A program made the position numbers and the translations under genes. A stretch of DNA of 64,000 nucleotides from Cephalotus follicularis (taxonomy: Eukaryota; Streptophyta; Magnoliopsida; Oxalidales; Cephalotaceae). Shown here piece by piece: positions 1 to 61,384 of the stretch (positions are counted from its first letter, which is position 1; every line of letters begins with the position of its first letter). The notes below the pieces were generated by a model. The model did not search any database and was not told the origin of the DNA. It saw only the letters and a program-made list of their open reading frames with translations. The stretch is taken from the NCBI GenBank assembly GCA_001972305.1, contig BDDD01000051.1, forward strand, positions 457,652 to 521,651. The letters run 5' to 3'.

Positions 1-1682
1 TCCAGTTATGTTACAGTTAGCCAGTCGCTACTAGTTAGGGTGCCTTCCATCAGGAAGTTTTTCCCACCCTCTAGATAGATGCCTAAGGTCTAACTAGTCC
101 AGACCTTGAGTATCTAGAAGGTCGGATACCGACCCAGCCATGCCATTCGAGTTGGTATTTCCCTCGTTAGCCATTCGAGCTGGCAGTCCCTCGTTGTTAG
201 CCATTCGAGCTGGTATTTCCCTCGTTGTTAGTTATGGCGAGCAGTCGCCCAGTTATGTTATGTTATTTACTTTGCTAGCTGCCTTATCCGCCTGTCTCAG
301 TTGCGGGATTGTACGGCTGTGCTTAGTATTCCAGCGAGATATCCTAGGTATGTTATGTTAGTGTAGTTAGTTCAGTTATGTTATAACCCATTTCAGTTAT
401 TCACCACCACAGATTACCTCTTTACCCTTGCACGCAGGTAGCATGGCTGAATCCGAGCGTTGTTGTGAGTGCTGAGTTCGTTAGCTAGCTACATGGTTAT
501 GTTGCAGCTTCGTTTCGTTATTCACCACCACGGATTACCTCCCTACCCTTGCACGTAGGTAAAATGGCTGAATCTGAGCGTCGTTGTGAGTACTGGGTTC
601 GTTAGTTAGCCAGTCACGTTAGTAATTTTTGACAAAAGTTTGTGAACTTGTGGAGTTCACTCCAAGGCCAGTTCACCGATACACTTTTCTTCATCTTTTT
701 GATCGAAATTTTGTCAGTTTTGAGGAAAGTCATGTAATCCGCAGCTGCAGAAATTACTTTCTGCAGCTGAGGAGAACTTTTACCTCCTTTCTGCAGCTAC
801 AGAAATATTTCTGCAGCTACAGAAAGGAACAAGTACATCTCCTAACCGGTTTTCTGCAGCTGCAGGAAACTCTTTCCGCAGCTGCGAAAAGTTATTTTAA
901 TTGCTCTCTTATGCGTAGCTACAAGGTGTAGCTGCGAAAATGACCCCTCTCTGTAGAAGCTCCTTTTCTGCAGCTGCATAAATATTTCTGCAGCTACAGA
1001 AAAGACGTTTTAGTTCCTATTTCTGCAGCTACAGAAATATTTCTGCAGCTACAGAAAAGAAGTTTTAGTTCCTACAACGAGAGCATACTCTTTCTGTAGC
1101 TGCTTAAAACCGATCCCCAGCTGCAGAAAGGACCGTCACAGCTAAAAAGACCATCTTTTACCCGGTTAGACTTCGGTTTTAGGTTAATTTTCTGTAAGAA
1201 ACTTTTGGTTTCAAATGTTAGTTAGTAAACTCCAATCATTTTGATCAATGTTGGAAGGTTTTAGTTAAGTTAGTAAGTCAAATTGTTAATCCAGTTCCCA
1301 AACGATATTTGGGTTTTTGGAGTTAAGTTAGTGAGTTAGTAAGTTAAGTTAGTAAGTTAAGTCAGTTAGTTAGTTATTTTGTCATCCGTTAAGTCATTTC
1401 TTCAGGATGGATAGTGACTTCGAAGTTTTCAACTCGAAGGTGAGTTAGCTAGCCATCTTTAGCGGGTTTTTGGAGATGAAAGAACAAGTTAACCATTCGA
1501 TGTTGAACATTTGTGACGAGAACAACTACCTCTACGTTAAGGTCGACGTTCTCTCCTTCCACCTCCGACGGTCGTTCTCCCTCTCTCTCTCTCTTCTATC
1601 TCTCTCCTCTCCTTTACTCTTATTACTCTCTTTTCTCTCTTTTAACTGAATTTATCAGTTAAGCCAGTTGAGAGGCTTTGAG
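1..1682. repeat. LTR-G segment present as complement without reversal (mirror image)
   Basis: Read base by base from left to right, the complement of this segment matches the plus strand of the solo G LTR from about 17881 to 19458. Two 20-base checks are exact. Bases 1196-1215 are the complement of 18976-18995. Bases 1401-1420 are the complement of 19193-19212. The match runs through the whole segment, including the repeat array, with gaps. To the right of 1682 the LTR is in ordinary reverse-complement orientation to the same solo LTR. Reversing 1-1682 in place gives an unbroken G LTR across 1683. Inversion always reverses and complements, so this is not an inversion; a sequence-handling artefact is the first explanation to test. 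Confidence 0.93.
740..1140. repeat. Array of CTGCAGCTACAGAAA-like units (mirror of the GACGTCGATGTCTTT array)
   Basis: Irregularly spaced units of the type TTTCTGCAGCTACAGAAA fill this stretch. The straight complement of CTGCAGCTACAGAAA is GACGTCGATGTCTTT, which is the unit of the array in the solo G LTR at 18595-18920 and in the copia LTRs at 5420-5970 and 58765-59310. The array is therefore the G-LTR array seen in the mirrored segment, not an independent PstI-site repeat. Confidence 0.85.
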
Positions 1683-2404
1683 GGTCGCATGCTCTATAGG
1701 ATATTGATTGATTGATTGGGTGTTTCATACACCACCACTGAGTATCTGCCATTGATTGATTGTTATAGATCCTATCCGTATGCTATGTTGGGCCATTGTC
1801 GTACGGATAGTCTGATCGCCAATTGTACATGTACATTTTCCATGTCATGCATTCTGCCATTGATTGATTGTTATAGATCCTATCCGTATGCTATGTTGGG
1901 CCATTGTCGTACGGATAGTCTGATCGCCAATTGTACATGTACATTTTCCATGTCATGCATTGATATTGTACACCGCACATTGTTATTGTATAAATTGTCA
2001 CTGATATTACACATTGTACATATATACATGCTGCATGGGGTTTCTGCTTAGCCAGTGTGGCTAACCCCATCCTTCGGGGTGGGGCTGTGTTGTACCTTTG
2101 TGTGCTGCATAGGTAGGGCAGCAGGTAGCAGTGGACAGAAGGACTGAGGACCGTTGATTGCTTGACTGCTTGGACACCGAGGAGTTGGTTGTGAGAGATT
2201 AGAGTGTTTTGTATTGAAAGACTTGTATTGTAAAAGGAATTGTATCGTATGTATGGATCAGTGTATTGTTCTTCTGCAACTGATATATATATATTGCAAA
2301 GTTTTAAGTTTTTCCGCATTTTATATTGCTAGTCCCGACCATCGTATTGTATAGTGGACTGAGCGTAATGCCACGTGTCCGCCCTCCGGGTGCGGGGTGT
2401 TACA
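1683..2404 (+). repeat. 3' part of LTR-G, normal orientation
   Basis: This part is the ordinary reverse complement of 17269-17879 in the solo G LTR. Shared landmarks are GGTCGCATGCTCTATAGG at the left, the TATAGATCCTATCCGTATGC block, and the canonical LTR end GGGGTGTTACA at 2404. The LTR is followed at once by GTTATGCATTGC, with no tRNA primer-binding site, so it does not look like a working 5' LTR of the element to its right. It could be a solo LTR, or the remnant of a recombination between two elements. Its left end lies outside the window. Confidence 0.8.
1745..1960 (+). repeat. 108-bp exact tandem duplication inside LTR-G
   Basis: Two adjacent 108-base copies begin at 1745 and 1853, starting TCTGCCATTGATTG and running to TGTCATGCAT. 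I see no differences between the copies. The solo G LTR (17269-19610) and the M LTRs carry a single copy, so this is a recent private duplication. The length is a multiple of three, which gives a chance open frame with a repeated peptide; it is not a gene. Confidence 0.88.
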
Positions 2405-2466
2405 GTTATGCATTGCATATAGATTATATAATGAATTGTGATATACTGTTATTGCATGTGAAGGAA
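2405..2466 (+). other. Leader between LTR-G end and gag of element A
   Basis: Sixty-two AT-rich bases separate the LTR end from the gag start codon at 2467. Gypsy elements of this lineage normally carry a TGGTATCAGAGC-type site complementary to initiator tRNA-Met directly after the LTR. I find none here, in contrast to element M, where TGGAATCAGAGG is next to the LTR. The leader is therefore truncated, or separated from its own LTR by the G LTR. Confidence 0.6.
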
Positions 2467-6735: not shown

Positions 6736-8070
6736 TTATTCAGCAGCAGGAGGGGTATTGGAATCGGAGGATTTATCGCCCTCATCGCCCGAAGTCTCTT
6801 CGCAACGATCAATAGTCTTGGAGTCGGCAAGCTTCCGTTCCATTCTTTTTAGACGCCTCTTAACGACTCTTAGATCGTAGTAGACGGTGTCATCAACATT
6901 TTCGTACTCGGAATGAAGTATTTTATGATATCCCTCCAATCTACTGAGCCGCGTGTTGACTTGCTTAAATTTATCATCAAGCGAGGCTTGCATGGAAGCA
7001 AATTGAGAACGCATGAACTCCATCATCCTGTCATAATCAGTAGTGGATGAGGAGCTTTGAGCTTGAGGCTAAGCAGGGGCAGCTTCACCTTGAGCTTCCC
7101 AAGGAGGGTTCTCTTCTTGCTCTTCAATAGCAATCCTTGGCCCTTGATCCACTTTGGGGCAATAGGTCCAGATTCCTTCCTGTTTTTTCCACCCCATCCG
7201 ATTTAGGGTACTCTTGTTGTATGTGTCTTCTTTCTTCAACTTGGTTGCAATCTCTCCTTCTAACCGAATGTGAAAGTGTTGGAAGACTTTGGTAAGAATG
7301 GAGCCAAATGGTAAAACAGATTTCTTTTGTGAGAATGCTCTAACCATAGTCTTGAGCATGAGGAGAGGAAAACAAAACTCAATTTTTGAAAGGATGCACC
7401 ACATAAGAAAAACTTGCATCCTAGAAAGCTTGGCATACCCTCCACCGGTGGGTAGAATTTGGTGTACAATAAGATGGTGGAGAAGCCTATGGTCTACAGA
7501 CAGTCTATTTGTTGTAAGAGCCATATTTGGATGGGCATTTGGATCATTAGGGTACAAAATCGACAAAATTTGGTTAGGGTGAAAACCCTCAACCTCCGGC
7601 CATTTCTTGTGTTCAAAGACATATAGACCGGTGTGTGGAATGTGTAAAATAGATGCTAGAATCCTAGCATTTAGATAGATTCTCTCTCCTTTAACATAAG
7701 AAGAGAGGGAAAATTCCTCATTTTGACTAGAAACCATCATAAGGTTAGAATAAAATTCCTTGACCAATTTGATGTAAAAAGGGTCAGAAATTTGAACAAG
7801 AAGAATGAGATGGAGGTCCTCTAACCAGGAAACAAAAGAAAATTCGGAGGAACAGAAATCTAAGTCAATATTCTTGCCTCCCATGACTCTTTTGTCAACA
7901 AAAGCAACACTTCTCAATGGGACAGGGGCTTGCTCTTCGGATTCGGAATCCGATTGGAAAGCTGGATCAGGGGAAGGTTCTCTAATCTCAAGCCTCTGCT
8001 TTTTAGCAGATTTCGGTGGCTGAGAGGAAGAAGCACCCTTCTTTTTGGTACCCTGTTTTGTCCTGACCAT
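6736..8070 (-). pseudogene. Extra ORF after pol in B (env-like position), one premature stop
   Basis: In frame from a start at 8070 (MVRTKQGTKKKG) to the stop at 6736, interrupted only by TAG at 7069-7071, where the intact copy in element C has a Gln codon. The upstream Met at 8106 adds twelve residues that C does not share as coding, so 8070 is preferred. Visible parts: a Lys-rich N-terminus, an acidic Ser/Glu region, a central domain resembling the 'putative plant transposon protein' family (FYSNL, HIPHTGLYVFEHKKWPE, LLHHLIVHQILPTGGG), then a C-terminal charged helical region likely to form a coiled coil. I see no signal peptide or clear membrane anchor. Position matches the env-like gene of Sireviruses; the function of this protein is unknown. 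Confidence 0.78.
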
Positions 8071-8657
8071 TTTATCGAACAGATGGTGTGCACAAGACAC
8101 AAGCACAAAGAGTGATACAAACAGATGATTTGGACGAGATGAAAACGGTTTTTGAGGATGGATACGGGATCAGAGGATGTTTTTCGACCAAATAGAACGA
8201 TTTTTGAAGAAAAATGGAAAGAGAAGAAATTTTTTGAAATGCTCAGAAATGGAGGTAAAATGAGAAATGAACATGAAGTCGACTTTTTATGAAGAAGTCG
8301 ATTTCTGAGTAAAAGACGTCGATGTGATTCAAAAGAAGTCGACGCGTTCTTTAAAATAGAGCTACAAAAACGGTGCGTTTTGAGGAGCATCGACACGTTT
8401 TAAACGAAGTCGACGTGTTTCAGTGAAACACAAAGGGATCGATGTTTTTCAAAAAGGATCGACGTTATTTTCATAAGTCAGAATTTTTCCAGAAAAGAGG
8501 TCGACGCGTTTTAGTAAAGCATAAAATTTCCAGAAAAGAAGTCGACTCTTTTGTAAAACAGAGCAGAAAAATCAAGCCAAAAACAGAACAAATAACTAAA
8601 ACAATCATCATATCAAATATGCAATCAATCAAACATATCATTCAGACATCATAAACA
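8071..8657 (-). repeat. Spacer between RNase H and extra ORF of B, with GTCGAC array
   Basis: No coding frame. From about 8275 to 8545 there are roughly a dozen GTCGAC, GTCGATG or ATCGACG units separated by 10-25 bases, for example AAAGAAGTCGACGCGTT. The array is the same kind as in the LTR but sits internally, just 5' of the extra ORF in element sense. Its conservation in C (61590-61865) suggests it is a functional part of the element, perhaps a second promoter; that is inference. Confidence 0.7.
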
Positions 8658-16950: not shown

Positions 16951-17268
16951 TTCTCCCTTAATTTATGATGACAAAATCATTAGCATAATAAAATTTTTGA
17001 AAGAAATTAAAGGAAGCCAAGGTTTAAAAATACTCTCCCTTAACAAAAGTCTTCCCCTTGAAAAAGAAAGGATTTGAATTCAACAACTATGAGTTTAAAA
17101 TTTAACAAAATAAGAGTTAAGGAAAAAAATATTACCTTAGCACTTTATGCATATCATCATATTTTTGGTTTTATTTTCAAAATTTAAAAACAACTAATTT
17201 CCATCCATGAACCTTGCATATCACAAATATTCATTTCAAATAATAAATTAAACTTTAAACAATATTAT
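16951..17268 (-). other. Polypurine tracts and non-coding 3' region of H
   Basis: TTCTCCCTTAAT next to the LTR, then CTCTCCCTTAAC near 17032 and CTTCCCCTTG near 17051, are purine tracts in element sense and resemble the repeated tracts of B and C. The rest is AT-rich with no frame. Solo LTR-G interrupts it at 17268; the H sequence continues at 19611-19671. Confidence 0.6.
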
Positions 17269-19610
17269 TGTAACACCCAGCGCCCGCAGGGCGGACACGT
17301 GGCATTACTCTCAATCCAATACACAAAACAATGGTCGGGACTAGCAATATAAAAATGCGAAAAACTAAAAACTTTGCAATATATAACACTTGCGGAAGAT
17401 ACAATACATTACAGGTCCTTACAATACATTAACAATCCACCTTTCATTACAATATCTCTATCAGCTCCGCAAAGCCCAAGGAGTCGTGCGGTCAGCAGGT
17501 CTTCAGTCCTTCGGTCCACTGCTACCTGCTGCCCTACCTATGCCACACACAAAGGTACAACACAGCCCCACCCCAAAGGATGGGGTTAGCCATACTGGCT
17601 AAGCAGAAACCCCTTGCAGCATGTATGCATGTACAATGTGCAATATCGGTGACAATCAATACAATATCAATGTGCGATGTACAATATCAATGCATGACAT
17701 GGCAAATGTACATGTACAATTGGCGATCAGACTACCCGTATGACAATGGCCCATAACAGAGCATACGGATAGGATCTATAACAATCAATCAATCAATCAA
17801 TGGCAGACACTCAATGGTGGTGTATGAAACACCCAATCAATCAATCAATATCCTATAGAGCATGCGACCGATGTCAATTCAGTGTCAATCAGTTAGCAGT
17901 GATCAATCCCACTGAAGGTAGTCCTTCAAAAAGGGTGGGAGATCTACCTACGGTTCTCAGGCTGATCAGGTCTGGAACACATAGATCTTCCAGCCTATGG
18001 CTGTGCCAATACAATCTCGATGAGCTACAGCTGAGGGAGCTACTGATGCCGTTAGGGAGCTACGGCCCTCAGCGAGCATCAATCGTCAATCGTCAATCAA
18101 TCGTGCTCTTCAGCACATGCTCGTCAGCATGACAATACAATAAAAGAAACGGTCGACGGAATAGGATGACGACATAAACCACAAGGTCACTCTATAGGAT
18201 CCATACAATACAATCAATCATTCAGTCAAGTTAGTACAACATTAAGTAAAGTCAATGAGTGGTGGTGCCTAATGGAGAAATGGGAACGTGCGTCCATCTT
18301 ACCGACTTAGACTCACAACAACACTTACGACTCAAGCAATCGATCAATGTATCAATACAACGTCGATGCAAGGCCGATAAATGGTGGTGCCTAATGGAGG
18401 GATGGAAACGTGCGTCCATTTTACCGACTTAGGCTCACAGCAACACTCATGACCCAAGCAATCAATCGGTCAGTGCAATCATTAAAACTGTTTTCAAACA
18501 CTTGAACACCTCAAGTGAGGCTGCAGTCAAGTGGCGATGCGAAAAGAAGTGGAAAACTAACTTTAAAACAATTAAAAACTCCTTTCAGTACATTAGGCGT
18601 CGATGTCTTTGGTGAAAGACATTGACTCCTTTTTAAAACGATGGAAAGACGTCGATGTCTTTCCCTATTTATATAGAGAATTGGGCAAAGACGTCGACGT
18701 CCTTGGAGAAAGGCGTCGACGCTTTTCAATAAAAACAGCCTGAGAATGCGCATCGATGTTCGGCATCGATGTCTTTCCAGGGGAGAGACATCTCGAGGCA
18801 AAGACGTCGACGTCTTTGAAAGACGTCGATGTCTTTGCTGCAGAATCAAGGATATAGCACTCAGATGAAAAAGACATCGACGTCTTTGGGCTAAGGGTCG
18901 ATGTGTTTCCCGGGCAGAGTCGATTTTTAGGTAGAAAAATGGGCCAATCTCAAGCCAAAATCCAAATAAAAGACATTCTTTGAAAACCAAAGTTTACAAT
19001 CAATCATTTGAGGTTAGTAAGACTAGTTACAACCTTCCAAATTCAATTTCAATCCTTTAATTAACAATTAGGTCAAGGATTTACTTAAAACCCCTAAAAA
19101 CCCCAATTTCACTCAATACATTCAATTCAATCATTCAATCATTCATTCAATCATGCAATTCAATCAATAAAGCAGTAGGTAATTCAGTAAAGAAGTCCTA
19201 CCTATCACTGAAGCTTCAAAAGTTGAGCTAACGATCGATTAATCGGCTGAAATCGCCCAATAATCCGCTACTTTCATGTTCAATCGGTAAGCCACCACTT
19301 GTAATCACTGTCCTTGTCGATGGAGATGCATTCCGGCTGCAAGGGATTAAGATGGAGGCTCCAGCTAGAGAGAAAGAGAGAAGGAGAAGAGTGAAGAATG
19401 AAGAGATAAGAGTAAGAAATTGACTTATATAGTCAATTCGACCAACTCTCCGAAACTCAGCCCAGAATCTCGACTATACATGCATATGATCAATACAGTA
19501 TCAATAGGTATAAGAATACCTCAATTAAATACAGTTCAGTACGGTCCAATACGGTGCAATACGGTACGATGTATGCATGAACAGTACAAAAGGGAATTCG
19601 GGTCATCACA
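17269..19610 (-). repeat. Solo LTR-G with target duplication ATTAT
   Basis: It begins TGTAACACCC on the plus strand and ends TCATCACA. ATTAT stands on both sides (17264-17268 and 19611-19615). There is no internal element sequence, so it arose by LTR-LTR recombination. It aligns with both M LTRs and is the reference for the mirrored segment at 1-1682. A minus-strand TATATAAG box is at 19424-19431. At 2342 bases it is close to the 2328-base M LTR. Confidence 0.92.
18595..18920 (-). repeat. GACGTCGATGTCTTT array in solo LTR-G
   Basis: About a dozen near-palindromic units such as AAAGACGTCGACGTCTTT at irregular spacing. The same unit occurs in the copia LTRs of B and C although G belongs to a gypsy lineage. 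The M LTRs carry a diverged CGTCGACGCGTAA version at the same place (50300-50600). Confidence 0.85.
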
Positions 19611-19671
19611 ATTATGCTAACTTTCTCCCCCATTTTGGAGAGAATAAGAAAGGCACAAAAATGAAGTTAAT

Positions 19672-45747: not shown

Positions 45748-45781
<34 letters not shown>
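45748..45781 (+). repeat. (GA)n microsatellite
   Basis: Seventeen uninterrupted AG units within LTR-K. Confidence 0.97.
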
Positions 45782-49003: not shown

Positions 49004-51331
49004 TGTAACACTCCGCACCCAGAGGACGGACACGTGGCATTACTCTCAATCCAATAAACAATACAATGGTCGGGACTAGCAATATAAAAATGCAGAAAAC
49101 TAAAAACTTTACAATACATCTTAATATGCGGAACCATAACAATAATCCGTCAATACGATACAATATGATACTAATTATCAATCTTCTCAATACAGTTTAC
49201 AATACAAGCTCTGCCAAAACAAAACGGTCATGCGGTCAAACGAATCTTCAATTCTTATGTCCGCTACTACTTGTTTCCCTACCTGTGTCATACAAGAATG
49301 CACCCATAGCCCCATCCCGTAGGATGGGGTTAGCCACAAGGCTAAGCAGAACCCCCATGCAACATGTATGCATGTACAATGTGCAATATCCGTGGTAGAT
49401 TATACAATATCAGTGTGTTGTGTACAATATCAATGCATGATATGGCAACTGCATGCATACAATTGGCGATCTAACTATCCATATGACACTGGGCCATAAC
49501 AGCCCACATGGATAGGATCTATAACAATCAATCAATGGCAAACACTCGGTAATGGTGTATAAAACACCCAATCAATCAATCATATCCTATAGAGCATGCG
49601 ACCTCGGGTCAATACAATGTCAATTAATGGCAATGATCAATCCCACGGAAGGTAGTCCTTCGAAAAAGGTGGGAGATCTATCTACTTGTCTCAGACTGGT
49701 CAGGTCTGGGACTCATAAATCTTCCAGCCTATGGCTGGGTCAAAACAGAGCATCAACCATGGGGGAGCTACTACCGTCGGGGAGCTACGGCTCGCCAGAA
49801 GCATCAATCAATAACAGTACTGCTTGTCAGCAAGTCAATACAATATAATAAATGAATCGATCGACAAAATAGGTGGACAAAGTCAACAACCTAACATGCC
49901 GATGCGAGTCATAAAGTCGCTCTATAGAATCCATACAATACAATCAATCTGTCAATGGGATGCCAATAAATGGGGATGTCTAATGGAGAAATGGGAATGT
50001 GCGTCCAATGTTCCGAACTTAGATTCACGACATTTATGGCTCAATCAATCAATCAATAGTCGATAGACGGTGACAATCAAATTAACAAGATAGGAAATAA
50101 CATCTATCCAGTCAAGAAAGTCAGTGGGTCGCCGCCTATGGCTCAATCAGTCAATTTATCAATACAAATCGATGTAATCATTGAAAACTAGGGAAGACTA
50201 TTTTCAAACGCTTGAATACCTCAAGTGAGGCTCTGGTCAAGCGGTAATGTAAAAAGAAGTTGAAAAACAGCTTTAAAACAGTAATTTTCCAAAACAGGGC
50301 GTTAGGCATCGACGCTATGGCCATACGCGTCGACGCGTAACATTTACTTTCAATAATAGGCTGATAGGTGTCAACACCCTTGGCAAAAGGCGTCGACGCG
50401 TAAACAGAAAACGTCGACACCGAGATGGCTTATATGATTTACGTTGACGTCTTACCTGGGAGAAAGAAATCCCAAGTCATACGCGTTAACTCCAAAGATA
50501 CACGTTGACGTTAACATCGAATAAAACCTCAATAAAACAGTTCAAAGGCTCAAGGCATTAACGCCAATAGGCTAGGCGTTGACGTCTGTGCTGGGAAAAA
50601 CCATTTTTTAGCAGAAAATGAAGCCGATGCCGGGTCAAATTCCAGTTTAAAGAAATTCTTTGAAAACCAATGGTTAAAATCACTCTTTTAAGTTTAGTAA
50701 AACTTGTTACAACCTTCAATTTACAGTTCCAATCTTCCTAGATCAGTTAGATCAAGGATTCAATTTAAAATCCCTTATACCATAATTCAATACAATACAA
50801 TCACTCAATCATTCAATTCAATTCAATCAATCAATCAGTCAAGCAATAGACAATTCAAGTAGAGAATTCCTACCTAGAAATGGAGCTTCAAAAGTTGAGC
50901 TACCAATCAATCAATCAGCTGGAAGCACTCAAGATCTAGTCGTTGCCTTGTTCAAGAAGAACGAAGATAAGACTTGCAATTGTTGTTCATTGTTGGTGTG
51001 GCAATCCGGAGCTGTTAGGGGAAAAGAAGGCTACTCAGCTAGGGAGAGAGAAGGTGAAGGATAGAGACAGAAGGAGAAGAATGGAGAAATGAGAGAATGA
51101 AGAAAAAATGGATAAGGATTGACTTATATAGTCAATCCAGCCAACTTTTCTGAAACTTAGCCCAAAATACCCCAACTATACATGCATATGATCAATACTA
51201 TAAACATTAGGTATAGAAATACCTCAAACCAATCATCTCTCAATGTCCAATACAATCCATTACAATCCAATAAGGTACAATGTATGCATGAACAGTGCTT
51301 AATAGAACAAAAGGAAATTCGGGTCGTTACA
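49004..51331 (-). repeat. 3' LTR of element M
   Basis: TGTAACACTCCGC on the left and GGGTCGTTACA on the right; 2328 bases. A minus-strand TATATAAG box is at 51123-51130. The CGTCGACGCGTAA array occupies 50300-50600. Confidence 0.93.
50300..50600 (-). repeat. CGTCGACGCGTAA array in M LTR
   Basis: Units such as GGCGTCGACGCGTAA, GGCATCGACGC and GCGTTGACG replace, at the same place, the GACGTCGATGTCTTT units of the solo G LTR. The array word has thus changed within one LTR family while position and GTCGAC core are kept. Confidence 0.75.
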
Positions 51332-56165: not shown

Positions 56166-57580
56166 TGTAACACCCCGCGCCAGGAGAACGGACATGTGGC
56201 ATTACTCTCAATCAAATATACAATACAATACATCTCAATATGCGGAACCATAACAATAATCCGTCAATACGATACAATATGATACTAATTATCAATCTTT
56301 TCAATACATTTTACAATACCAGCTCCGCCAAAACAAAACGGTCATGCGGTCAAATGAATCTTCAATTCTTCTGTCCGCTGCTACTTGCTGCCCTACCTGT
56401 GTCATACAAGAATGCACACACAGCCTCATCCCGTAGGATGGGGTTAGCCACAAGGCTAAACAGAACCCCCATGTAACATGTATGCATGTACAATGTGCAA
56501 TATCCATTGTAGATTATACAATATCAGTGCATGCATACAATTGGCGATCTAACTATCCATATGACACTGGGCCATAACAGCGCATATGGATAGGATCTAT
56601 AACAATCAATCAATGGCAGACACTCGGTGGTGGTGTATAAAACACCCAATCAATCAATCATATCCTATAGAGCATGCGACCTCGGGTCAATACAATGTCA
56701 ATCAATGGCAATGATCAATCCCACGGAAGGTAGTCCTTCGAAAAACGTGGGAGATCTATCTACTTGTCTCAGACTGATCATGTCTGGGACTCATAGATCT
56801 TCCAGCCTACGGCTGGGTTAAAACAGAGCATCAACCATGGGGAAGCTACTATTGTCGGGGAGCTACGGCCCTCCGGGAGCATCAATCGTCAATTAATAAC
56901 AGTACTACTCGTCAGCAGGTTAATACAATAAAATAAATGAATTGATCAATGAAATAGGTGGACAAAGTTTACAGCCTAACATGCCGATGCGAGTCATAAG
57001 GTCGCTCTATAGAATCCATACAATACAATTAATCTGTCGGTGCGATGCGATGCCAATAAGTGGTGATGTCTAATGGATAAATGGGAATGTGCGTCCAACG
57101 TTCCGAACTTAGATTCATGACACTTATGGCTCAATCAATCAATCAATAGCTGATAGACGGTGACAATCAAATTAACGAGATAGGAAAAAACATCTATCCC
57201 GTCAAGAAAGTCAGTAGGTCGTTGCCTATGGCTCAATCAGTCAATTTATCAATACGAATTGATGCAATCATTGAAAACTAGGGAAGACTGTTTTCAAACG
57301 CTTGAATATCTCGAGTGAGGCTCCGGTCATGCGGCAATGTGAAAAGAAGTTGAAAAACAGATTTAAAACAGTAATTTTCTAAAACAGGGCGTTAGGCGTC
57401 GACGCTATGGCCATACGCGTCGACGCGTAACATTTACTTTCAATAATAGGCTGATAGGCGTCAACACCCGTGGCAAAAGGCATCTCTAAAAACCAGTAGG
57501 TTTAGGCGTTGACGTCCTTGGGTCAAGGCGTTGACGCGTAAACAGAAAACGTCGACATCGAGATGACTCATATGATTTAC
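56166..57580 (-). repeat. Truncated 5' LTR of element M
   Basis: It matches the 3' LTR from TGTAACACC up to ATGATTTAC (57580; equal to 50446 in the 3' LTR). The last ~885 bases are missing. Around 57490-57530 it has about 50 extra bases with GGCGTTGACG units compared with the 3' LTR. Confidence 0.9.
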
Positions 57581-58148
57581 CTAGGTGGCAAGAATTGATC
57601 AAGTGGTGACTATTTGAATAAAAGTAGATGTCCATTTAATGATAAGAAGTTGTTGAGTGATTATAATAAAAATAAAGTTATTAATCACAAATGAAGTAGT
57701 ATTATAAATAAGTTGTCAAATTATTATTAGTATTTTTTTTTAAAATTATTAATAATTTTTTATTTTTAATGAAACAATCATCAATAATAATTTGACAACT
57801 CACTTGTGATATACTTACGATATTACCATATTTTTTATTAATAGCATTATTCATAAAAACGAGTATTTGATCCTACCCATCCCATACGGGTATTAATAAG
57901 TTTAAAACATTATTGTTTAAAAATTATGTTTGTTACCCATAATTTGTTTAAAACATTATGTTTGTTTTTATATTATTGAGTATTATATTATGAGAACATG
58001 AAATTTTCAAAAGGGTACGGATAGGGTACGGGTATTAATAAATTTTTACAGAGACGGGAATGAAGATCTTTTACAATACCCGCACGGGTATGAGGAGGGT
58101 ACGAAGAAATTAATAAAAAAAGGAGACGGGGACTGAAATAAACACTCT
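57581..58148. other. AT-rich segment with inverted repeat and GGGTACGG-type repeats
   Basis: No gene. The left part holds an 18-bp inverted repeat (57711-57800). The right part has CCATACGGGTATTAATAAG (57883-57901), GGTACGGATAGGGTACGGG (58015-58033) and ACCCGCACGGGTATGAGG (58079-58096), words seen in non-autonomous hAT-like DNA transposons. I could not find terminal inverted repeats, so that assignment is tentative. Confidence 0.4.
57711..57800. repeat. 18-bp perfect inverted repeat, 54-base loop (MITE-like hairpin)
   Basis: AGTTGTCAAATTATTATT at 57711-57728 is the reverse complement of 57783-57800. Weaker pairing extends outward on both sides, as in an old foldback element. Confidence 0.75.
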
Positions 58149-59428
58149 TGCAATATACAAGAGGGGGGTGAATTGAATATTGAAGTAAATAATGAAAATT
58201 TAAAACTTTTAAAGGAAAGGAGTGAAGGGAAAGAAAAACTTCTCCGAAATTTAGAGTGGTTCGGCTAACTCTTGCCTACGTCCACTTTTCCCAAGGGAGC
58301 TCCTTGAGTTTCCACTATCTCGAATTGATTAAGGCAGCAATTCGTTACACCTCACAATTTCGTGATTGACCTCAATCACAAGACCTTGACCTCAAAGCCT
58401 TAGAGGATTCTCCTCTTTTACAAGTAATGATAAAAGTGTTTACAAGATGACCTCTCAAATAGGTAGGTATGAAAATTACAGCTCTCAATATGAAACACTC
58501 AGATAATCTCAAAGAGTAAAGCTTAGAAGCTTGTTAGAACACTATGGAGCACTTTGAGCTTATTGCACACTAGAATGCTTGGATTTGATATTTCTCTTGA
58601 TGTTGTATGATTGATGTGAATAATTCTGAATTCTTGTTGTTCAGTGTATATTCTCTGAGGTTTCAGTCTTCCTTTTATAGCCATAAAAGTTTTGTAGCCG
58701 TTGCATGAATTATGGAAGCTTTTGATTTAATAATGTGTAGTTGCAATCTTTGATTTTTGTCTTCTGATATAAAGACGTCGATGTCTTCCAAAAAGGCGTC
58801 GATGTCTTTGTAGTTGATAGCCGTTGGTAGTGCTTGTACTAGCCGTTCCAGGTTTCCCGGGTCTTGTTCATTTAAAAAGACATCGATGTCTTTTTAAAAG
58901 GCGTCGATGTCATTTCTGGGAAATCTCCAGGTATTGAAACTTTGAACATCACATCGACTTCTTTTGTGGGAGTCGATGTATTTTCTGGGAAATGCAGGTA
59001 GCTCTAGAAAGCCGTCGATGTCTTTGGAAAGGCGTCGATGTCTTCCGTACGGACGTCGATGTCTTTACTGATAAGCATCGATGTCATCACTCGAAAATGT
59101 CCTGTAACTTTGGCGCCTAAAGACGTCGATGTCTTTCAGATAGGGATCGACTTCTTTCGTACGGACTTCGATGTCTTTGCCTGTAGAAGTCGATGTCTTC
59201 ATGTGAATTTGACCTGTAACTTCTGGCATGAAAGGCGTCGATGTCTTCTTGAAAGGGATCGACTTCTTTCTGTACGGACGTCGATGTTATTCCATAAAAC
59301 TCGATGTCTTCTTCTACAGATGGTATTTTGCTTTGATATTGAACTTGTAATTCCTTGCACATCAAGTAAACTTGCCAAATGCAAATATGTTATCATCAAA
59401 ACAAGGATTGAGACTTAAATCGTCAACA
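58149..59428 (-). repeat. 3' LTR of element C
   Basis: It begins TGCAATATACAAG and ends CGTCAACA; 1280 bases. A minus-strand TATAAAAG box is at 58672-58679. The GACGTCGATGTC array spans 58765-59310. It aligns throughout with the B LTR. Confidence 0.92.
58765..59310 (-). repeat. GACGTCGATGTC array in C 3' LTR
   Basis: Same units and order as in B (5420-5970) and in the other C LTR (63045-63575). It lies upstream of the TATA box in element sense. Confidence 0.85.
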
Positions 59429-60058: not shown

Positions 60059-61384
60059 TCATTCAGCAGCAGGAGGGGCATCGGAATCGGATGATTCATC
60101 GCCCGAAGTCTCTTCGCAACGATCAATAGTCTTGGAGTCGGCAAGTTTCCGTTCCATTCTTTTGAGACGCCTCTTTACGACTTTTAGATCGTAGTAGATG
60201 GTGTCATCAACATTTTCGTAGTCGGAATGAAGTATTTTATGATCGTTCTCCAATCTACCGAGTCGCGTGTTGACTTGCTCAAATTTATCTTCATGCGAGG
60301 CTTGCATGGAAGCAAATTGAGATCGCATGAACTCCATCACCCTGTCATAATCAATGGTGGATGAGGAGCTTTGAGCTTGAGGCTGAGCAGGTGCAGCTTC
60401 TTCATGTGCTTCCCAAGGAGGATTGTCTTCTTGCTCTTCAATTGCAATCCTTGGCCCTTGATCCACTTTGGGGCAATAGGTCCATATTCCTTCTTGTTTC
60501 TTCCACCCCATCCGATTCAAAGTACTCTTGTTGTACGTGTCTTCTTTCTTCAACTTTGTTGCAATCTCTCCTTCTAGCCGAATATGACAATGTTGGAAGA
60601 CTTTGGTGAGAATAGATCCGAAGGGGAGTACGGATTTCTTTTGTGAGAATGCTCTAACCATAGTCTTGAGCATGAGGAGAGGAAAACAAAATTCAATTTT
60701 AGAGAGGATGCACCACATTAGAAAAACTTGCATCCTAGACAATTTTGCATACCCTCCACCGGTGGGTAAAATTTGGTGTACAATGAGATGGTGGAGAAGC
60801 CTATGGTCTACTGACAATCTATTTGTGGTCAGTGCCATGTTGGGATGAACATTTGGATCATTGGGGTACAAAAGAGACAAAATTTGGTTAGGGTGAAAAC
60901 CCTCAACCTCCGGCCATTTCTTGTGTTCAAAAACATATAAACCGGTGTGTGGAATGTGTAAAATAGAAGTTAGAATCCTAGCATCTAGGTAAATCCTTTG
61001 CCCTTTCACAGAAGAAGAGAGGGAAAATTCCTCATTTTGGCTAGAAACCATCCTAAGATTGGAATAAAATTCCTTGACCAATTTGATGTAAAAAGGGTCA
61101 GAAATTTGAACAAGAGGAATGAGATGGACGTCTTCTAACCAAGACACAAACGAAAACTCGGAAGAACAGAAATCTAAGTCAATATTTCTGCCTCCCATGA
61201 CTCTTTTGTCAACAAAAGCAACACTTCTCAAAGGAACAGGGGCTTGCTCTTTGGATTCGGAATCCGATTGGAGAGCAGGGTCAGGAGAGGGTTCTCTAAT
61301 CTCAAGCCTCTGCTTTTTAGCAGATTTCGGTGGCTGAGAGGAAGAAGCACCCTTCTTTTTGGCACCCTGTTTTGATCTGATCAT
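60059..61384 (-). CDS. Intact 441-residue extra ORF of element C (env-like position)
   Basis: Open from 61384 (MIRSKQGAKKKG) to 60059. The N-terminus is Lys/Ser-rich and followed by an acidic segment (residues ~30-50). The central domain (~residues 70-320) resembles the 'putative plant transposon protein' family: FYSNLRMVSSQNEEF, IPHTGLYVFEHKKWPE, LLHHLIVHQILPTGGGYAKL, FPLLMLKTMVRAF. A Glu-rich linker follows. Residues ~350-420 (MEFMRSQFASMQAS … LKRMERKLADSK) look like a coiled coil, before an acidic end. No signal peptide or clear transmembrane helix is seen, so true envelope function is doubtful. The B copy differs by one stop and scattered substitutions. It is the only long undamaged retroelement frame in the window. 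Function unknown. Confidence 0.85.
   Translation of the reverse strand: MIRSKQGAKKKGASSSQPPKSAKKQRLEIREPSPDPALQSDSESKEQAPVPLRSVAFVDKRVMGGRNIDLDFCSSEFSFVSWLEDVHLIPLVQISDPFYIKLVKEFYSNLRMVSSQNEEFSLSSSVKGQRIYLDARILTSILHIPHTGLYVFEHKKWPEVEGFHPNQILSLLYPNDPNVHPNMALTTNRLSVDHRLLHHLIVHQILPTGGGYAKLSRMQVFLMWCILSKIEFCFPLLMLKTMVRAFSQKKSVLPFGSILTKVFQHCHIRLEGEIATKLKKEDTYNKSTLNRMGWKKQEGIWTYCPKVDQGPRIAIEEQEDNPPWEAHEEAAPAQPQAQSSSSTIDYDRVMEFMRSQFASMQASHEDKFEQVNTRLGRLENDHKILHSDYENVDDTIYYDLKVVKRRLKRMERKLADSKTIDRCEETSGDESSDSDAPPAAE

Follow-up and report, generated by a model that had tools for sequence, protein, structure and literature searches.

LTR sequence reversed without complementation at gap edges of the Cephalotus follicularis assembly, almost certainly an assembly artefact

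The first 1682 bases of a 64-kb stretch of the Cephalotus follicularis assembly (hereafter the window; C51:457652-521651) are a complement-only copy of an LTR, and this block is a pattern in the assembly file, with an origin in biology very unlikely. Blocks of this kind have their order reversed in place, sit at gap edges, continue the neighbouring contig from their gap-side end and recur in two LTR families. They are almost certainly an assembly artefact, in which a gap filler's long-read extensions of contig ends, some of them reversed and uncomplemented, were put between the contig edge and the gap.

Results

Read from left to right, the complement of window 3-1682 aligned with 17873-19458, inside an ordinary solo LTR of the same family (17249-19640, plus strand), over 1722 columns at 78.8% identity (1436 bits, E = 0). 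A sequence-only reading of this DNA had described 1-1682 as the straight complement of that LTR, and the alignment bears it out; both of the 20-base correspondences that it gave (1196-1215 with 18976-18995 and 1401-1420 with 19193-19212) are exact. An ordinary copy on contig C1187 is closer, matching the block's complement at 94-95%, and related LTRs at 49607-51157 and 56685-57404 gave weaker complement-only matches. Compared with the window without complementation, 1-1682 matched only itself (internal repeats included) and, in three low-complexity matches of 30-32 columns, 45748-45781 (E up to 1e-3). The complement-only relation is confirmed as real, with chance excluded: the best of 100 shuffles (in 2-base blocks of the complement) scored 35.6 bits against the 1436 bits of the real alignment, and the best complement-only score among 36 other 1682-base tiles, each compared with the window minus 1-1682, was 53.6 bits. 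At E up to 1e-10, all complement-only matches within the 64-kb window involve 1-1682, and reverse-only matches there numbered none.

The block (window 1-1682, no strand assigned) directly follows an N run of 9,407 bases (C51:448245-457651), a single long run of a sort that need not be an assembly gap, exact 25-N runs elsewhere being the ones that look like assembly gaps. Because the window begins at the first base after the Ns, the block forms the gap edge. In the coordinates of the ordinary C1187 copy it covers LTR positions ~639-2263, and it adjoins an ordinary reverse-complement piece of the same LTR at window 1683-2405 (minus strand; LTR positions 638-20). That piece, too, had been recognized in the sequence-only reading (as 1683-2404), in agreement with alignments of 1683-1853 at 91% and 1859-2426 at 83%. 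Where the block's far end meets the ordinary contig edge (1682/1683, no strand), LTR position 2263 abuts 638, and position 639 is found at window base 1, on the gap side. Under the proposed mechanism, a gap-filling step would use long-read sequence to lengthen contig ends into scaffold gaps, and some of the added strings would be reversed, not complemented, and then placed between the edge of the contig and the gap. In the window, such an extension would leave the contig edge (base 1683) at LTR position 639 and run outward to 2263; written backwards, it would have 2263 next to the contig and 639 next to the Ns. Since the start of the outward extension is found at the gap and its far end beside the contig, the extension appears to have been written backwards.

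The rest of the assembly, where the sequence-only reading had proposed looking for reversed, uncomplemented copies of this LTR, does hold blocks of the same kind. With window 1-2400 as the query against the genome (1.577 Gb in 9,746 contigs), complement-only matches were found on at least nine other contigs among the 40 of 5,813 candidates that were scored. A four-way comparison at all nine contigs gave a complement-only or reverse-only stretch in every case (9 of 9), and on eight of them this stretch was collinear with ordinary, like-oriented pieces of the same LTR; the 15 kb examined on C1459 held none. Junctions, expressed as C1187 LTR positions (contig edge/gap-side end of the block), were 638/639 in the window, 1686/1685 on C295, 1121/1122 on C103, 810/810 on C1351 and 1116/1118 on C28; they were looser on C21 (695/687), C33 (1370/1360) and C453 (2215/2192, with 36 more bases to the N run). 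The junction on C2749, 2091/2100, stands without N, and the block end concerned there is the one away from the contig.

Recurrence extended to an LTR of a different family, located at window 58134-59428 (plus strand), the surroundings of which share only short matches with the block (up to 101 columns, none inside the probed part). The second probe, the complement of 58250-58700, returned at least 41 match rows on 39 contigs at 79-99% identity when compared with the genome (40 of 143 candidates scored), and the best ten of these 41 rows were complement-only or reverse-only without exception. Second-family junctions (contig edge/gap-side end) included 58735/58734, 58844/58843, 58247/58248 and 58684/58684, and one block (locus L026) ended 13 bases short of the scaffold end, with a junction of 58166/58163 at that edge. 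As both of the two LTR families tested were positive, a mechanism tied to one element is unlikely.

We assessed gap context and continuity for 20 blocks on 20 contigs, made up of the ten first-family blocks (window included) and the best ten of the 41 second-family rows. An N run lay at most 160 bases away in 17 of the 20 (directly adjacent in 13, and 7, 36, 89 and 159 bases off in the remaining four), and 18 of the 20 had a contig edge on one side and a gap or a scaffold end on the other (17 an N run, one a scaffold end). Eight of the 17 adjoining N runs were exactly 25 N long. Of 465 ordinary 500-base control tiles, drawn from the window and from loci L020-L034, 8 had an N run within 200 bases, a rate that is raised by the choice of 10 of these 15 loci because of a block. 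The two blocks with no N nearby, C2749:159739-160381 (L013:4240-4882) and one on C1518 (L030:1382-2319), may be gaps that a reversed extension closed. The stretch examined held an ordinary piece of the same LTR for 17 of the 20 blocks (the blocks at L014, L028 and L030 had none there), and in LTR coordinates the gap-side end continued the contig edge within 0-3 positions in 10 of these 17 and was off by 6-31 positions in the other 7. At L016, L025 and L034, 367-650 bases that were unmatched by the LTR references lie between the block and the ordinary piece. Matched block lengths were ~0.4-1.7 kb, the extent differing from locus to locus. Relative to the N run, 13 blocks were on the left and 4 on the right, with 1 at a scaffold's high end; this leftward bias might stem from a single branch in how the software handles strands.

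Ordinary sequence was found at other gap edges: the far edge of the window's gap, both edges on C1187 and the opposite edges on C295, C1459, C21, C28 and C1351; the opposite gap edge on C103 matched nothing. Given these ordinary edges among the gap edges examined, only some edges are reversed. Complement-only matches (E up to 1e-10, more than 100 columns) were absent from 35 kb of other stretches (L021-L024), comprising 30 kb beside the window or its gap (far edge included) and 5 kb beside the C1459 block.

A copied element would be expected to form a family. At nine affected gap edges, the complements of ~400 bases aligned to ordinary LTR sequence with 79-98.8% identity (308-403 columns). An ordinary LTR gave the top-scoring match at five of these edges, and a different complement-only block did so at the other four; such mixed best matches are as expected if the blocks were drawn from the same pool as the ordinary copies. 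We built a tree from 17 LTR pieces (265 columns; a piece had to cover at least 230 bases of the chosen part, which admitted 6 of the 10 first-family blocks). Its six complement-only pieces needed six label changes, where shuffled labels needed 5.2 on average, and 0% of 200 bootstrap trees united them. The tree is short, with one well-supported inner branch, and its well-supported branches alone are compatible with one origin. In this weak tree there is no sign of a complement-only lineage, and the blocks look like separate local products. End branches were near zero in five of the six complement-only pieces, shorter than those of most ordinary copies, as if the blocks had been averaged from reads of several LTR copies.

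Discussion

The sequence-only reading had left two options for the block: parallel-strand copying, or a processing step in which a string was reversed and not complemented. The latter fits the gap-edge position, the gap-side continuity, the recurrence in two families and the absence of signs of a separate lineage, and the former found no support beyond the sequence relation itself. That relation is indeed real and beyond chance, and at four of the nine edges the blocks are as close to each other as to ordinary copies, as a true biological event that produced a complement-only LTR copy might allow. Against such copying, an N run or scaffold end is present at 18 of the 20 blocks, the blocks occur in two LTR families with a different extent at each locus, continuity is kept at the gap side, the tree shows no lineage of their own, and the 35 kb of other stretches lack complement-only matches at the same thresholds. 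Copies of a biological element would be expected mainly in closed sequence, and 2 of the 20 blocks are without a gap or scaffold end. Parallel-strand copying was accordingly rejected on gap-edge position, continuity, recurrence and the tree, and we regard its probability as negligible.

Any string reversal would produce the same local relation, including a different processing error in which, for example, whole contig pieces were misoriented during scaffolding or submission rather than added by gap-edge extension. The inner order of a reversed contig, however, would not carry on from the neighbouring contig on the gap side, nor would the reversal be confined to ~0.4-1.7 kb between contig edge and gap, and we consider this explanation highly unlikely. 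Still less probable, to an extreme degree, is an alteration of the sequence between the public record and this analysis: all 20 blocks, on 20 contigs, share one geometry that respects gap edges, and a planted change would more naturally be single. Some observations do count against the artefact reading, among them the blocks without N (2 of 20), those without an ordinary piece (3 of 20), the inexact junctions (7 of 17), the unmatched bases at L016, L025 and L034, the affected edges with another complement-only block as best match (4 of 9), the weakness of the tree and the limitation of the reversal to some gap edges.

For the reversed gap-edge extension, we infer software as the cause, in the form of a PBJelly-like gap filler that extends flanks; that PBJelly, or a script around it, holds an orientation bug is our guess. 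Gaps that PBJelly overfills keep a run of exactly 25 N. Part of the program's published description covers flank extension, a minimum gap of 25 N and gaps left 'overfilled' (PMC3504050), and part of a later account gives a count of 28,377 overfilled gaps in one assembly (PMC9635638). The blocks resemble PBJelly-type extension as portrayed in those parts of the two sources, in that new sequence stands at contig edges facing a still-open gap and 25 N is the threshold, and they differ from it in that reversed, uncomplemented extensions go without mention there (PMC3504050, PMC9635638). The 25-N runs adjoining 8 of 17 blocks here may be set beside the 25-N gap minimum in the same part of the PBJelly description (PMC3504050). 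That a widely used flank-extending gap filler has a systematic orientation bug, which left mirror-order sequence at many gap edges in this assembly and probably in others made with it, is a tentative proposal that we hold to be possible and on balance doubtful. Among the papers listed for reversed, uncomplemented assembly sequence, we recognized no description of such a bug.

Other known arrangements are similar in part. An ordinary inversion misassembly likewise places a segment in the wrong order within otherwise collinear flanks, but inversion misassemblies are reverse complements, whereas the blocks here are reversed in order only. Mirror repeats and parallel-stranded DNA share with the blocks a relation of a sequence to its own unreversed complement; they are short structures, in contrast to the 1.7-kb copies at gap edges described here.

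As biology the block has no importance; it matters for data quality, as a modest warning about assemblies. Reversed, uncomplemented sequence would go unmatched by ordinary alignment and so would look unique or novel, and it would probably hide LTR ends from repeat annotation and could seed false predictions. Screening is easy: the complement of the bases adjoining each N run can be aligned to the remainder of the assembly.

Additional observations in the window

The ordinary LTR piece that adjoins the block holds a perfect tandem duplication at 1745-1961 (two 108-base copies, 100% identical), and overlapping alignment shows the same 108-base stretch once in the C1187 copy; the duplication could be another artefact of the gap edge, for instance an overlap left unmerged. 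A search of the plasmid collection gave no match, and scans of the 64-kb window with Rfam (gathering scores) and ARAGORN found nothing. Two open frames, at 7069-8106 and at 60059-61384 (minus strand), match Pfam Transposase_32 ('Putative plant transposon protein'), and other open frames in the window have domain matches to retrotransposon reverse transcriptase, RNase H, integrase and protease.
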